A program made the translations under genes and the position numbers. 47,836 nt of DNA from a virus, in IMG/VR virus record IMGVR_UViG_3300025174_000034, positions 1-47,836 of that record; one strand, 5' to 3'. Positions within the stretch are counted from its first letter, which is position 1. Each line of letters opens with the position of its first letter. The notes beneath the pieces were generated by a model. It ran no database searches and was not told the origin of the DNA. It saw nothing but the letters and a program-made list of their open reading frames with translations. This document shows, piece by piece, positions 4,772-44,402 of the stretch.

Positions 4772-6171
4772 CGTCTGAAGCCGGGCGAGTCTAGTCTCAA
4801 CTGCGAGTGATACTCAAAGGGGTTTTGGGCCTGCATCGGTCGCCTACCATACACGGCGCTCAGGTTGTCCCTGTGATAGCCCAGGATAAAGAGTTCGGAC
4901 ATTCCATAACGAATCGCATCAGGGCCGTGATCGTCGTAGTCCTTTTGACCCTCGCGCGTATTCTTGCCTTCCTTCTCAGGAACGGTTTGGAGATGCTCAA
5001 GCTGCCGAATAGTATTAGTGCAAGAGCGATCGATAAAGAACTTAGGCTTACCGTCGGGCTGTATTTTCATCCACTGCTTGACGATCTCGATGCCTTGATG
5101 CCATCCGCTGATTCCCCGATCAACGGGCAATTTGCGGCCAATGATAGAAGGGCCAGGCAAGATGAAGCTCAAAGTCCGCATAGCATCGGGGTCAGAGGGG
5201 TCAGCGAAACGGCCGTCAACGTGGAAGTGTGGTGGATTCTCACGACCTGCTAGAGCTAAGCCGTGTTCCTGATTAGTCTTGCGCCTAATTTGATACTCTC
5301 GCCAGACGTAAACATTATCGGAGGGATCGACCATAACGTCCAAGCATACAAAGGGATCAGCGAAACCAAAGTCAAACCACTGATAGCTCCTCCAGAACGG
5401 GTTGTATACAAGATCCTTGACGTGGATCTCTCTATCAAACTCGTCATAGATACGGCCTTCGAGTGCGGTGAATTCTGCGCAATATTCCTGTAGCCAGTGG
5501 TATTTGCTGACTCGCGCTTTGATCGCTACCAATTCAGGCTGCTTGTCACCAAGTGGAAATTTAGCAGTATTCGCCCATGTTGGAAAACGCCAAGACTCGA
5601 ATTCATCGAACGCTGGATCTTGCCCCAACAACCACATATCCTCATACCAATTGTGGCCTCTTGGGGTCGAAATCATATCAGCGGAGCCGCGTTTATCGAG
5701 TAACGCTGGCTCAATAAACATTTCCCATGTATCACGTTTATGAATGGCAGCCTCAGCTATAATACAATGATCGAGACCTTCGCCAATAAGCGAATCCTGC
5801 TTGTCAGCGGATTTTACTTCTAGTATGGTGTTCCAGGGCATTTGAATACGCATGTTGCCCTGGTCAATGTTGTACGACTTTCTAATTCCTTTATAGCTAC
5901 CCATTCCGAGCTTTCTAAAAATATCCTCAAAAACAACCCTAAACTCCTTCTCGCCAGATGAATAGGTTTCACCAACAATCCAGTACATCGAATCAGGAAC
6001 AAACATGCGCGCAGTCATGTGATGCCCAACCATGAAACTTTTTCCGAAACGTCTACCGCAGCAGGCGATCTTATACTTTGCCTTGGAATCGTGATAAAGC
6101 TGTTGGGCAGGGTGTGGCTTGTAGCCCAGTTCTTTGAAGAGAGTTTCTTTTGAAATATTAAGTTCAGTCAT
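4768..6171 (-). CDS. Terminase large subunit (packaging ATPase and nuclease)
   Basis: Cuts concatemeric DNA and pumps it through the portal. With the ATG at 6171 the protein has 467 residues. The ATPase has a Walker A motif CGRRFGKS (residues 38-45), a Walker B-like HCIIAEAA (135-142; Asp replaced by Ala-Glu context) and a coupling motif STPRG (near 168). The nuclease half has FDFGFADP (266-273) and the late acidic KDYDDHGPDA. I chose 6171 over an upstream GTG because it overlaps the stop of the small membrane gene (ATGA); the extra 18 residues would be low-complexity. Confidence 0.92.
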   Translation of the reverse strand: MTELNISKETLFKELGYKPHPAQQLYHDSKAKYKIACCGRRFGKSFMVGHHMTARMFVPDSMYWIVGETYSSGEKEFRVVFEDIFRKLGMGSYKGIRKSYNIDQGNMRIQMPWNTILEVKSADKQDSLIGEGLDHCIIAEAAIHKRDTWEMFIEPALLDKRGSADMISTPRGHNWYEDMWLLGQDPAFDEFESWRFPTWANTAKFPLGDKQPELVAIKARVSKYHWLQEYCAEFTALEGRIYDEFDREIHVKDLVYNPFWRSYQWFDFGFADPFVCLDVMVDPSDNVYVWREYQIRRKTNQEHGLALAGRENPPHFHVDGRFADPSDPDAMRTLSFILPGPSIIGRKLPVDRGISGWHQGIEIVKQWMKIQPDGKPKFFIDRSCTNTIRQLEHLQTVPEKEGKNTREGQKDYDDHGPDAIRYGMSELFILGYHRDNLSAVYGRRPMQAQNPFEYHSQLRLDSPGFRR

Positions 6172-6302
6172 ATAAGGCGAATGAATTGCATAATGACGAT
6201 GACGGAAAGGAGAGCTAGAAGCCACCTTAAGGTTGTGTCTATTGTTACCAATCTATCTCGTATGCGTTCGAGCACAAATAGGATTCTAGGATCTTCAGTC
6301 AT
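6168..6302 (-). CDS. Small single-span membrane protein before terminase
   Basis: A 44-residue gene. An acidic/basic N-terminus (MTEDPRILFVLERIRDRL) precedes one hydrophobic segment (about residues 25-43: LRWLLALLSVIVIMQFI). The stop overlaps the terminase ATG as ATGA, which also fixes the terminase start. The ribosome-binding site is weak. A holin-like role is possible from size and topology, but nothing else supports it. Confidence 0.65.
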   Translation of the reverse strand: MTEDPRILFVLERIRDRLVTIDTTLRWLLALLSVIVIMQFIRLI

Positions 6303-20909: not shown

Positions 20910-20917
20910 AACTTTAT

Positions 20918-20988
20918 GCGCCGCTGGTGTAACGGGAGCATACTAGGCTGTAACCCTACAGGACGAGGTTCAAATCCTCGGCGGCGCA
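20918..20988 (+). tRNA. tRNA-Tyr (anticodon GTA)
   Basis: Acceptor GCGCCGC pairs with GCGGCGC; D arm has loop TAACGGGAG; anticodon stem CTAGG/CCTAC with loop CTGTAAC, so the anticodon is GTA at 20950-20952; T arm CGAGG-TTCAAAT-CCTCG. CCA is not encoded. The first anticodon-stem pair is C-C. The variable region has only four bases, whereas bacterial tRNA-Tyr normally has a long variable arm. Confidence 0.82.
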
Positions 20989-21042
20989 TTTGTGTAACTC
21001 ACAATGAGTTGCCAATCTACGCACAAAGAAAGGAGGGTAGAC

Positions 21043-24211: not shown

Positions 24212-24412
24212 ATGGACAAAATCTCGGAACTGCTCGATGATTATGGTTGGGCAGAAGGTGACGATCTACGCAAAACGACTCTGCTCAAATGGATGACCGA
24301 AGCAACTAACCGCATCCAAGAGCTTCAACACAAGGTTGATAATATCGAGAACCTAGAAAGAGGACTCTTCGAGGATCTCGAAGCCAAGCTAATCGAGAAA
24401 GGAGTTCTCTAG
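24212..24412 (+). CDS. Hypothetical 66-residue helical protein
   Basis: TTAGGAGG precedes tandem ATGs at 24209 and 24212. Two long helices (DKISELLDDYGW and TNRIQELQHKVDNIENLERG), the second coiled-coil-like. No family recognised. Confidence 0.66.
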   Translation: MDKISELLDDYGWAEGDDLRKTTLLKWMTEATNRIQELQHKVDNIENLERGLFEDLEAKLIEKGVL

Positions 24413-24720
24413 TGCTAAAGAAAGACGTACAGATCGGCGCGCTCTATACCGCAAAGATTTCCAACAAGCTTACGAGTGTGCGTATCAGTTCAGTATGCTC
24501 ATACGGAGGGTGGTGGGGTATCAATCTCACTACAGGCCGAAGCGTGAGAATCAAGTCCGCTGCGAAACTCCAGCCGATGCCATATACACAACTACGCTGC
24601 AATCATTGTGGTCGCGAATTCCGTAATGGCGAGCACCCTCTCGTTTGGGCACCGATGGAAGAAGTCGGTGAACCCGAAGACCAACAGCTAGTTTGTTATG
24701 GATGTGAACACGAGCTATAG
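24412..24720 (+). CDS. Zinc-ribbon protein, 102 residues
   Basis: GTG overlaps the upstream stop; AAAGGAG is eight bases before it. The N-terminal half is beta-rich (VQIGALYTAKISNKLTSVRI), the C-terminal half a ribbon CNHCGREF ... CYGCEHEL. It ends before a tRNA-like element. A nucleic-acid-binding role is likely but unproven. Confidence 0.7.
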   Translation: MLKKDVQIGALYTAKISNKLTSVRISSVCSYGGWWGINLTTGRSVRIKSAAKLQPMPYTQLRCNHCGREFRNGEHPLVWAPMEEVGEPEDQQLVCYGCEHEL

Positions 24721-24757: not shown

Positions 24758-24819
24758 GGGCCGGTAGCCCAACTGGTAGAGGCATCCGATAAGTGAGGGT
24801 TCGAATCCCTCCCGGCCTA
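24758..24819 (+). tRNA. tRNA-like element lacking the anticodon arm
   Basis: Acceptor GGGCCGG/CCGGCCT (first pair G-U), D stem GCC/GGC with an eleven-base loop holding GG, and T arm GAGGG-TTCGAAT-CCCTC with discriminator A. The anticodon stem has only its 5' strand TCCGA, followed at once by TAAGT and the T stem: loop and 3' strand, 12 bases, are missing exactly. It is either a tRNA remnant or an armless tRNA-like RNA. No decoding is possible. Confidence 0.6.
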
Positions 24820-24854: not shown

Positions 24855-24974
24855 ATGTGGTTTACTATAAAGGCGAATGTCCGGTATTACTTCCGCCGCG
24901 TAGTACGCCTCGTTCGTTATGGGCATTGGCGTGACGATGGCGGAGAGGAAGCTTATCGTGAACTGAAGGGCTAG
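24855..24974 (+). CDS. Tiny basic protein, 39 residues
   Basis: GGAGGTGAAAGG precedes the ATG. The peptide (MWFTIKANVRYYFRRVVRLV then RYGHWRDDGGEEAYRELKG) is amphipathic with an Arg-rich first half and may associate with membrane or nucleic acid. No family recognised. Confidence 0.58.
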   Translation: MWFTIKANVRYYFRRVVRLVRYGHWRDDGGEEAYRELKG

Positions 24975-25050: not shown

Positions 25051-25731
25051 GTGAAAGACATCTACATTGTCTCCGACGTGCATGGAAACTACGAGGGCTT
25101 GCGGAAGGCTCTTTTTTCCGCTGGTTTGTTCGATAACCACGGAGTAAAAGATCCTAATGCATTCATCGTGCAGATCGGAGACTTGGCAAACTGCGTCTAT
25201 GGATCGCGCGAGGATGATCTCCGTTGCCTCGATATGGTCGGAAAAGAAATCGACCTTATGCTAGTCGGCAACCACGAGATTCCTTACTTCGATCCTGAAA
25301 ACACGTTCTCGGGATTCCGTTTCAACTTCGACATTTCCCAGACTCTCTGGGCGCACTATGCTAATGGGCTGCTCACTTCATCGTATTGTGAAGACGATAG
25401 CTGGCTCGTCACGCACGCTGGAATCTCACAGTCGCAGTTGAACTTTGGGACGGGAACTACGCCTCTGCTCGTGAATGACAAGTTACAGCATGAGTGGAAG
25501 GAAAAGAACTTCGCGCACTATCTCTTTCGCGATTGCGGTCGTGTAAGGTTTGGGGATGCGAAGGTCGGTGGAGTGCTATGGTGCGACTTCGATAGGGAGT
25601 TCGAGCCGACAGAATTCCCGCAGATAGTTGGGCATACCCCCGGAGTCCTGCGACAGAAAGGAAATGCGCTTTGCATAGATACTGGAGCGAAGTTCGGAGG
25701 AATACCAACAGTCCTAAAGTTGGAGGTCTAA
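25051..25731 (+). CDS. Calcineurin-like metallophosphoesterase
   Basis: A 226-residue enzyme of the metal-dependent phosphoesterase family. The five family motifs are present: SDVHGNYEG (residues 8-16), QIGDLAN (41-47), LVGNHE (71-76), VTHAG and GHTPG with a late FDTGAKFG-like CIDTGAKFG. They would bind two metal ions. The substrate cannot be read from the sequence; phage relatives act on protein phosphates or nucleotides. GTG start behind AAGGAGGTG, with a possible promoter upstream. Confidence 0.9.
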   Translation: MKDIYIVSDVHGNYEGLRKALFSAGLFDNHGVKDPNAFIVQIGDLANCVYGSREDDLRCLDMVGKEIDLMLVGNHEIPYFDPENTFSGFRFNFDISQTLWAHYANGLLTSSYCEDDSWLVTHAGISQSQLNFGTGTTPLLVNDKLQHEWKEKNFAHYLFRDCGRVRFGDAKVGGVLWCDFDREFEPTEFPQIVGHTPGVLRQKGNALCIDTGAKFGGIPTVLKLEV

Positions 25732-28733: not shown

Positions 28734-29402
28734 GTGGACACCAAGATTGAGGAATTCGAGCACGCTGGACTAACGTGCGAGATTCATTGGGAAGAGGATG
28801 GCGAGTTTTGCAATCCTCGCGACAATGACAATCTCGGCATCATGCTCTGCTGGCACCCTGACTATATCCTCGGGGATAAGCAATTCACGAATCCAGACGG
28901 TCGGGGTGGCGTAAAGGAACGCTTCCACAGGGATGATTTCGAATCGATGGAAGTTCTGAGTAGATACCTTACACTCGTAGAGAAGGCAGTTGTCGTTTTG
29001 CCGCTATCGATCTACGATCACTCTGGTATCACGATGTTTGTCGGTCATCGATATCCATTCGATTCCCAGGGATGGGATACTACGACGGTTGGGTTTATCT
29101 ACACAACCACCGAGAGAATAATCGAGTGCTTTCCTATGGATCAACCGCTGCCTGATGAAAGCGTGATCGAAGGAGCTTTGCGTCAGGAGGTAAAGGTCTA
29201 TGACGAGTGGCTTTGCGGTGAGGTCTACTGGTGGTGCGTTCGCGATAGCGAAGGTGAGATGATTGAGTCCTGTGGAGGATACATCGGAGACATCGACTAC
29301 GTGAAGGAGGAAGCGAAGGAATCAGCAGAAGCTCTTGCGAAAGACATCCTCATCAATCAGGAGCCTACTGACATCGCAGAAATTCTAGGGGGCATGTCGT
29401 AA
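28734..29402 (+). CDS. Conserved phage protein, YDHSGIT type
   Basis: A 222-residue protein with GTG start. The motifs CNPRDNDNLGIMLCWHPDYI-LGD, LPLSIYDHSGITMF, WDTTTVGFIYTT and YDEWLCGEVYWWCV...SCGGYIGD mark a protein that recurs in many phages, always without a known function. A near-universal YDHSGI centre makes the call secure. The gene does not sit in a recognisable pathway here. Confidence 0.82.
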   Translation: MDTKIEEFEHAGLTCEIHWEEDGEFCNPRDNDNLGIMLCWHPDYILGDKQFTNPDGRGGVKERFHRDDFESMEVLSRYLTLVEKAVVVLPLSIYDHSGITMFVGHRYPFDSQGWDTTTVGFIYTTTERIIECFPMDQPLPDESVIEGALRQEVKVYDEWLCGEVYWWCVRDSEGEMIESCGGYIGDIDYVKEEAKESAEALAKDILINQEPTDIAEILGGMS

Positions 29403-41344: not shown

Positions 41345-41490
41345 ACTGTGCAGGTGCGTAGGAATGGGTTACTTCTCATTGGTGAGAGAGGTCGCAGGTT
41401 CGAGTCCTGTCATGGTGTGGCACCGGCCCACCATGTAGCTCAGTTGGCAGAGCGCTTACGTTACCTTTTCCGCCTTGTCCTCTGCACAGT
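41345..41490 (+). ncRNA. Y RNA 2 with a permuted tRNA-like domain (YrlA-like)
   Basis: Closing stem ACTGTGCAG (41345) with CTGCACAGT (41482), nine pairs. Motifs TGCG-N7-GGGTTACTTC and ACCTT-N6-CTTGTCCT follow. The distal part folds as a tRNA read in permuted order: T arm GCAGG-TTCGAGT-CCTGT, acceptor CATGGTG closed by an 11-base loop to CACCATG, D arm GCTC-AGTTGGCA-GAGC, and an anticodon-stem equivalent GTGAG/CTTAC that joins the Ro-type stem. YrlA bacterial Y RNAs have this layout. Confidence 0.85.
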
Positions 41491-42851: not shown

Positions 42852-44402
42852 ATGCCTAAGTTCTCGGGAGGAAAGACGCGCCCTAACGTGACTTCTCCGA
42901 TGCGAACCACCGGAGTACAGGGTACTACGTATGAAGGTGGCCTTGGTTTTGAGCGTGATGCAAAGACAGAACTTTTCCTGCTTGCGGTCACGAACATGGT
43001 CAAGGAAGATACTTTCTACGAGGCCGCTAGTGAGCGCGACAAGCGGTTCAAGGATCTAGCGCATACCGTGGTTGCGGAGGATTCTGCATGGGTACGCGAG
43101 TTCATTCCATACCTTCGCAACACGATGCAGATGCGCTCCGCATCGATCGTGCTCGCTGCACATTACGTGCATGCGAAGGGAGAGAAGTCTCGTCAGGTTG
43201 TTGATTCCGCAATGTCGCGAGCGGACGAGCCCGCCGAGATCCTTGCGTATTGGGCGCAGGAGTATGGAAAGAACTTTCCACAGCCTCTAAAGCGTGGAGT
43301 CGCTGATGCTGTGGAACGGTTGTATACGGAGCGCTCGGCACTGAAGTATGATGGACAGTCTCGCGCATGGCGCATGGGCGATGTAATCGACCTTGTGCAT
43401 CCTAAGCCATTGACTGCTGAGCAGTCTGCTCTATATCGCTACCTACTCGATACGCGGCACAAGCGCGAATCTACGAATACTCTTGATCTACCGCTTATTC
43501 GTGCTTGGCAGTTTGCGAATGACATCCCTGTCGAACTGCGACGAGCCCGGATGCTAACACACGGCATCCCACAGGGGATGACGTGGGAGTCGCTTTCGGG
43601 ATGGTTGCAGGGGCCGATGGACGCCGAGGCATGGGAAACCGTAATCCCGCAGATGGGATATATGGCGCTTCTGCGCAATCTGCGCAACTTCGAGGATGCT
43701 GGAATCTCGAAGGAAACGGTCGAGTACATTCATGCAAAGATCAGCGATCCTGATGAAGTTGCAAAGTCTCGACAGTTTCCAATTCGCTTCTATTCCGCAT
43801 GGAAGGCTACTGATTCCTTGCTATGGAGCCGAGAATTAGAGTATGCGCTCGATCATTCGGTAAGTAACGTGCCGAAGCTTGAAGGTCGAACGCTCATCCT
43901 AGTAGACGTTTCTGGCTCGATGTATGATCGCATGTCTTCGCGGTCTACTGTGGATAGGTGGGAGCTTGCTGCTGTCTTCGGGGCAGCGCTAGCAAAGGCT
44001 AACCGTGGAAGCTCCGATCTTGTAGCGTTTTCGACTGATAGCTATCCAATTGATCCTGCACGCTCCATTTTGCAAACCGTCGATAAGATTCGAGGGATTG
44101 GTGGCGGCGGCACAGATACATGGGGAGCCTTCAACCAGCACTACAATGACCATGACCGTACTATTATCCTTACCGATGAGCAGGCACATCCTGGCAACAT
44201 TCTTAGGGGGCAGGATAGGAGCGCACCGATCTATACCTTCAACCTTGCTGGATACAAGATGGCACACTCCGAACAGGGTGAGAAGGGTAGCTACGTATTC
44301 GGTGGTCTGACGGATGCAGGGTTCGTGCTTCTAAAGGCGATTGACGAGCTACAGCACGGCCGCTGGCCCTGGGAGCTTGACAGCGGCCCTGAGCGAGCGT
44401 AA
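42852..44402 (+). CDS. rsr: Ro60 / TROVE-domain RNA-binding protein
   Basis: A 516-residue Ro60 homologue (bacterial name Rsr). Residues about 20-330 are the TROVE alpha-helical repeats forming the ring that binds Y RNA and misfolded RNA ends: LFLLAVTNMVKEDTFY, WVREFIPYLRNTMQMRSASI, WETVIPQMGYMALLRNLRNF. Residues 345-510 are a von Willebrand A domain with an intact metal site: DVSGS (352-356), GGGGTDT and LTDEQ. Length fits the family. GGAGAGGAGTAG precedes the ATG. The Y RNA array upstream supplies the expected partners. Confidence 0.95.
   Translation: MPKFSGGKTRPNVTSPMRTTGVQGTTYEGGLGFERDAKTELFLLAVTNMVKEDTFYEAASERDKRFKDLAHTVVAEDSAWVREFIPYLRNTMQMRSASIVLAAHYVHAKGEKSRQVVDSAMSRADEPAEILAYWAQEYGKNFPQPLKRGVADAVERLYTERSALKYDGQSRAWRMGDVIDLVHPKPLTAEQSALYRYLLDTRHKRESTNTLDLPLIRAWQFANDIPVELRRARMLTHGIPQGMTWESLSGWLQGPMDAEAWETVIPQMGYMALLRNLRNFEDAGISKETVEYIHAKISDPDEVAKSRQFPIRFYSAWKATDSLLWSRELEYALDHSVSNVPKLEGRTLILVDVSGSMYDRMSSRSTVDRWELAAVFGAALAKANRGSSDLVAFSTDSYPIDPARSILQTVDKIRGIGGGGTDTWGAFNQHYNDHDRTIILTDEQAHPGNILRGQDRSAPIYTFNLAGYKMAHSEQGEKGSYVFGGLTDAGFVLLKAIDELQHGRWPWELDSGPERA

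Follow-up and report, generated by a model that had tools for sequence, protein, structure and literature searches.

The 62-nt element at positions 24758-24819 (plus strand) is, in all likelihood, a deletion allele of an accessory phage tRNA-Leu, private to this virus and probably of recent origin; it cannot decode and is unlikely to have a function. It belongs to the window, namely the whole stretch of DNA analysed here, a 47.8-kb tailed-phage contig (IMG/VR record IMGVR_UViG_3300025174_000034, positions 1 to 47,836).

Anatomy and parentage of the element

The element is a tRNA beyond chance: cmscan matches it to RF00005 over the full model (1-71) with 42.9 bits (E 6.6e-6), above the gathering score of 29 bits, although ARAGORN, run on the window, makes no tRNA call there. 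Its minimum-energy fold is a cloverleaf without the anticodon arm (-23.6 kcal/mol); compared with shuffles this energy is unexceptional (z -1.29), and the significance of the element therefore rests on the covariance model. Read from its 5' end, the sequence runs GGGCCGG TA GCCCAACTGGTAGAGGC A TCCGA/TAAGT GAGGGTTCGAATCCCTC CCGGCCT A, where the slash marks the deletion junction (Table 1). Acceptor, D and T arms stand in the normal order, the anticodon arm with its anticodon is absent, and the linker between D and T arms measures 11 nt against the usual 23.

Table 1. Parts of the tRNA-like element and selected genes of the window
Feature	Position	Strand	Evidence or remark
tRNA-Tyr(GTA), intact, only other tRNA of the virus	20917..20989	+	
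102-aa ORF upstream of the element, two CxxC pairs towards the C-terminus	24412..24720	+	37 nt separate it from the element
Acceptor stem, 5' strand GGGCCGG	24758..24764	+	7/7 pairs with 24812-24818, G1.U72 included
TA (positions 8-9) and D arm GCCCAACTGGTAGAGGC	24765..24783	+	3-bp stem, 11-nt loop, as in tRNA-Leu
A26 and anticodon stem 5' strand TCCGA (27-31)	24784..24789	+	aligned base by base with full-length Leu tRNAs
12-nt deletion junction (positions 32-43 missing)	between 24789 and 24790	+	alignment with Leu tRNAs
Variable loop TAAGT (44-48)	24790..24794	+	5-nt loops ending GT typical of the class; TAAGT occurs
T arm GAGGG TTCGAAT CCCTC	24795..24811	+	5/5 pairs
Acceptor 3' strand CCGGCCT and discriminator A73	24812..24819	+	no encoded CCA
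Small 39-aa ORF downstream, preceded by an AGGAGG-like ribosome-binding site	24855..24974	+	read from sequence
Calcineurin-like metallophosphoesterase gene	25051..25731	+	Pfam PF00149, E 1.6e-9
TROVE/Ro60 gene	42852-44402		downstream of the YrlA match

The parentage emerges from a comparison with 76 distinct full-length tRNA-Leu genes with a short variable loop, drawn from viral contigs and annotated phage records. A scan of viral contigs with D-arm and T-loop words, allowing any linker of 6-30 nt, yields at least 120 stretches, full-length Leu forms being abundant. Anticodons in the 76-gene set are TAA, TAG, CAA, CAG, GAG and others; the anticodon stems are pairable, and the variable loops are 5 nt long and mostly end in GT, TAAGT being among them. 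Position 26 is A or G in 74 of the 76, and A73 is present in all but one (75/76). When aligned with this set the element shows a single 12-nt gap, positions 32-43, whilst the rest aligns; words of its TA and D-arm stretch are found identically in full-length phage tRNA-Leu genes of this kind, and G1.U72 is common to several of its closest full-length Leu relatives. With its Leu-type D arm, its 5-nt variable loop and A73, the element belongs to the phage tRNA-Leu with short variable loop; on this alignment such a gene is its parent, and the copy a truncated descendant.

The class is exemplified by tRNA-Leu(gag) of Virus Rctr197k, tRNA-Leu of Gordonia phage Phendrix and tRNA-Leu(gag) of Mycobacterium phage Bonray, all with the class I (short) variable loop. 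The element shares with them the Leu-type D arm, the 5-nt variable loop ending in AGT, the T arm and the discriminator A, and with several also G1.U72, whereas positions 32-43 are gone and with them the anticodon. Known phages offer only weak or partial tRNA matches to the element and no DNA match to its 2-kb neighbourhood. A first-pass annotation of this DNA had described intact acceptor, D and T arms, the loss of exactly 12 bases (loop plus one strand, the 3' one, of the anticodon stem) and an inability to decode; this anatomy is confirmed at the stated coordinates.

Genomic setting, relatives and the probable deletion

The leftward genes include those for terminase, portal, protease and major head protein, and a long series of small genes runs rightward, the element itself sitting within a co-directional run of small genes. 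A promoter and terminator scan near it returned nothing clearly above chance. The same virus is also represented by contigs of 79 kb and 57 kb, which are identical over the compared stretches except for one single-base gap; the sequence of the element is exact in these two further contigs, whose assemblies may not be independent. No second, full copy of the tRNA-Leu exists elsewhere in the 79-kb contig. That the virus really has a full tRNA, shortened by an assembly or sequencing artefact, is hardly credible: two identical contigs may derive from overlapping data, but three contigs are in exact agreement and the junction is clean.

A scan of IMG/VR with the armless Leu pattern (short linkers, 8-19 nt) matched only the two contigs of the same virus. 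A search with the major head protein gave 35 loci, most of them on short fragments, and only one relative, G017 (77 kb, major head protein about 82% identical), is near genome length and best covered; a search with the protein encoded at 28734-29402 found, besides the same virus, only remote relatives. Examination of G017 revealed neither a tRNA nor the element itself, and likewise no Ro60 and nothing recognisable as a Y RNA. The ORF upstream of the element has an N-terminal homologue in G017, which is followed there directly by another gene. Since G017 is devoid of all of them, this lineage seems to carry the element, the tRNA-Tyr, Ro60 and the Y RNA as accessory material. The first-pass annotation had proposed that relatives be searched for the same shortened form; such a form turned up in the same virus only. 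No relative with a full-length tRNA-Leu at this locus was found among those examined, for which reason the ancestral full-length state is inferred from the tRNA-Leu family. Neither the comparison with G017 nor the viral scan gave evidence of purifying selection on the armless Leu form.

The plain explanation given in the first-pass annotation, a simple deletion, is the best supported, for the linker is what one deletion leaves and the form is unique to this virus. A phage tRNA-Leu with short variable loop, A73 and G1.U72 would have lost positions 32-43 in a single 12-nt event; if the lost 3' strand was TCGGA or similar, GA would have stood at both break points, and slippage between the two GA copies may have caused the deletion. 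The armless RNA would be transcribed along with the surrounding co-directional genes and would probably still be folded and processed, given that acceptor and T arm should permit RNase P 5' processing, 3' trimming, CCA addition and T-loop modification; it would lack the ability to decode and, presumably, a function. Outside the deletion no decay is visible in acceptor, D arm, T arm or discriminator; a retained armless RNA would look like this, and so would a young deletion, which is the account favoured here. In L311/L324/L333 an apparent tRNA-Lys shows an analogous loss of 12 nt.

The setting of the element might also suit an RNA of which only the fold matters, namely as an RNase P or 3'-processing site separating the flanking small genes. 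RNase P recognises the acceptor plus T arm of tRNA, the very part retained here, and the element is intergenic between co-directional genes, an ORF led by a ribosome-binding site beginning about 35 nt downstream; yet the arrangement in G017 differs, and such a role is regarded as very improbable. What does run counter to equating the deletion with a loss is the recurrence of armless tRNA-like elements in other viral contigs, where some persist between diverged relatives; a lost arm thus need not mean a lost function in general.

Armless elements in other genomes

The pattern TGGTAGAG-N(10-20)-GGTTCGAATCC retrieved 36 stretches from viral contigs, a relaxed version 67, and the first pattern 86 from 257 Gb of bacterial genomes, all of these counts being lower bounds, as the scans require exact words and miss divergent forms. 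Among the bacterial stretches without masked bases a tRNA-like acceptor is essentially confined to L217 (Streptococcus porci), which is the same sequence as the viral L034, and perhaps L213.

Of 51 distinct viral or phage armless elements that were parsed, 41 have 6-7 acceptor pairs, and their D-to-T linkers are of 8 nt (16 elements), 9 (11), 10 (6), 11 (7) and 12 (1). Linkers of 6 and 7 nt were never seen, though the relaxed pattern allowed them (probability about 1e-6 under a flat expectation). The group with 8-9-nt linkers comprises about 27 distinct elements from viral contigs, whose acceptor stems are well paired but very different from each other. In 21 of 27 the linker opens with a pyrimidine, unlike position 26 of tRNAs; among 25 full tRNAs that share the D arm none does so (p 1.6e-9, in a post hoc test with a small baseline and pooled elements of perhaps incomplete independence). 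Linkers resembling CTTGGGTC turn up repeatedly next to acceptors that differ greatly, CTTGGGTC and CTTGGTGC being frequent. These elements are therefore hard to explain as simple deletion scars, and they look like an undescribed RNA family, separate from the element of the window, whose 11-nt linker starting with A26 places it outside the group.

Members of the 8-9-nt group include L299, L300, L304, L313, L314, L320, L322, L327, L328, L334 and L335, as well as L308, L318, L332, L336, L342 and others. In L304 and L313 the armless element lies beside what look like phage capsid genes; an abiF RNA scored beside the L313 element (39.9 bits, threshold 37) is probably a chance match, its neighbours looking like phage structural genes. 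The Polaribacter phage Danklef carries an annotated 58-nt 'tRNA-OTHER', Undet (NNN) (L345, MT732458.1 43546-43603), which, like the element of the window, has acceptor, D and T arms and no anticodon arm; it differs in its 8-nt linker TTTAGGTC, its ordinary D arm and its other parent, and fits the recurrent short-linker group.

Some armless elements persist between diverged relatives. In L303/L310 the region of the element, which sits at about 3000 in the compared stretches, is 91% identical against 65-73% in the flanks, with a compensated T-stem change; this element has a poor 7-bp acceptor but possibly a longer interrupted stem, and a terminator-like hairpin follows it. An armless element is also common to L033 (around 5380-5540), L039 (minus strand, around 1095-1203) and L047 (around 6127-6289), where a short Cys-rich reading frame (..WC..C......CC.DYGTCMCS or similar) ends about 10 nt before it; no other protein similarity was detected among these three contigs. 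In L034 (6773-7223; the same in the Streptococcus porci sequence) the armless element begins 4 nt past the 3' end of a GOLLD RNA. The window holds no GOLLD RNA, and an association of its element with GOLLD was rejected.

Two other tRNA-like forms came to light. Bacteroidota genomes (L223, L229, L237, L258, L261, L279, L233, L250 and others) contain many elements with D and T arms, whose linkers begin with CAACAG/CAATAG and whose acceptor is unusual and may be extended; Rfam scores some of them as tRNA, and they are possibly part of a larger RNA. In Lactococcus phages (bIL309 and 63301 among them; L343 1495-1555, L344, L346) a tRNA-like sequence, GGTTCTT...AAGAACCA, follows the endolysin gene; its D arm is damaged, a mini-hairpin replaces the anticodon arm, and it may be connected with an attachment site.

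No report of phage tRNAs without the anticodon arm was found in openly available papers, which does not prove its absence; papers on armless tRNAs that mention phage appear to concern mitochondrial and eukaryotic tRNAs. Armless mitochondrial tRNAs likewise keep the rest of the tRNA, yet they lose the D and/or T arm and retain the anticodon arm, the reverse of what is seen in the window.

Possible uses and the Ro60 system

A functional armless RNA, kept for its elbow and acceptor end, is unlikely for the copy in the window. It could accept leucine for some step outside the ribosome, titrate tRNA enzymes as a tRNA that withstands anticodon nucleases, or bind to the phage Ro60 as its ligand. Every part except the anticodon arm is intact, and armless elements whose linkers measure no less than 8 nt recur in other viral contigs; the anticodon is not a main identity element for the leucyl-tRNA synthetase of E. 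coli, which makes leucine charging conceivable. Nonetheless, the linker A TCCGA/TAAGT is an unmodified deletion product, unlike the recurrent linkers of 8-9 nt, and the form is unique to one virus and absent from G017.

As to Ro60, the virus encodes both a TROVE/Ro60 protein and a YrlA-like tRNA-mimic RNA. The latter is the sole match of the window to YrlA (RF02553), at 41387-41456 (35 bits, E 5e-4, below the gathering score of 69), and between 40990 and 42200 the window holds several permuted, YrlA-like tRNA-like repeats upstream of the TROVE/Ro60 gene. Together they are an instance of the well-known partnership between Ro60 proteins and Y RNAs that mimic tRNA. In the Rhodococcus phage Trina (L050 478-686; NC_042040 84277-84485) a 209-nt 'tRNA-OTHER' pseudogene, with tRNA-like ends and a long insert replacing the anticodon arm, is situated just upstream of a Ro RNA-binding protein gene.

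YrlA shares the tRNA-like elbow with the element, but its order is circularly permuted (T arm, acceptor, D arm) and it forms part of an RNA that binds Ro, whereas the element has the normal order and no YrlA match; nor does it adjoin the Ro60 gene, and the YrlA-like RNA lies about 17 kb away. Thus the permuted mimics invoked in the first-pass annotation do exist in this genome, but, being permuted, they do not bear directly on the element. The active armless RNA that had been thought conceivable there finds no support for this copy, the sole well-covered relative (G017) being without the element and without any tRNA; the idea as such is less far-fetched, since armless tRNA-like elements recur in viral contigs. 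It is improbable that the element has recently joined a wider, undescribed kind of phage RNA that lacks the anticodon arm, keeps acceptor end and elbow connected by a linker of at least 8 nt, and has a non-decoding use; were it so, these RNAs would serve charging, the titration of tRNA enzymes, or RNA processing.

Taken as a deletion allele, the element captures cleanly the loss of an accessory tRNA from a phage. Ordinary in itself, it has its main value as a pointer: ARAGORN missed it, and the search for like forms exposed the recurrent short-linker elements, which are the better lead and which, if functional, would be a new kind of phage RNA.
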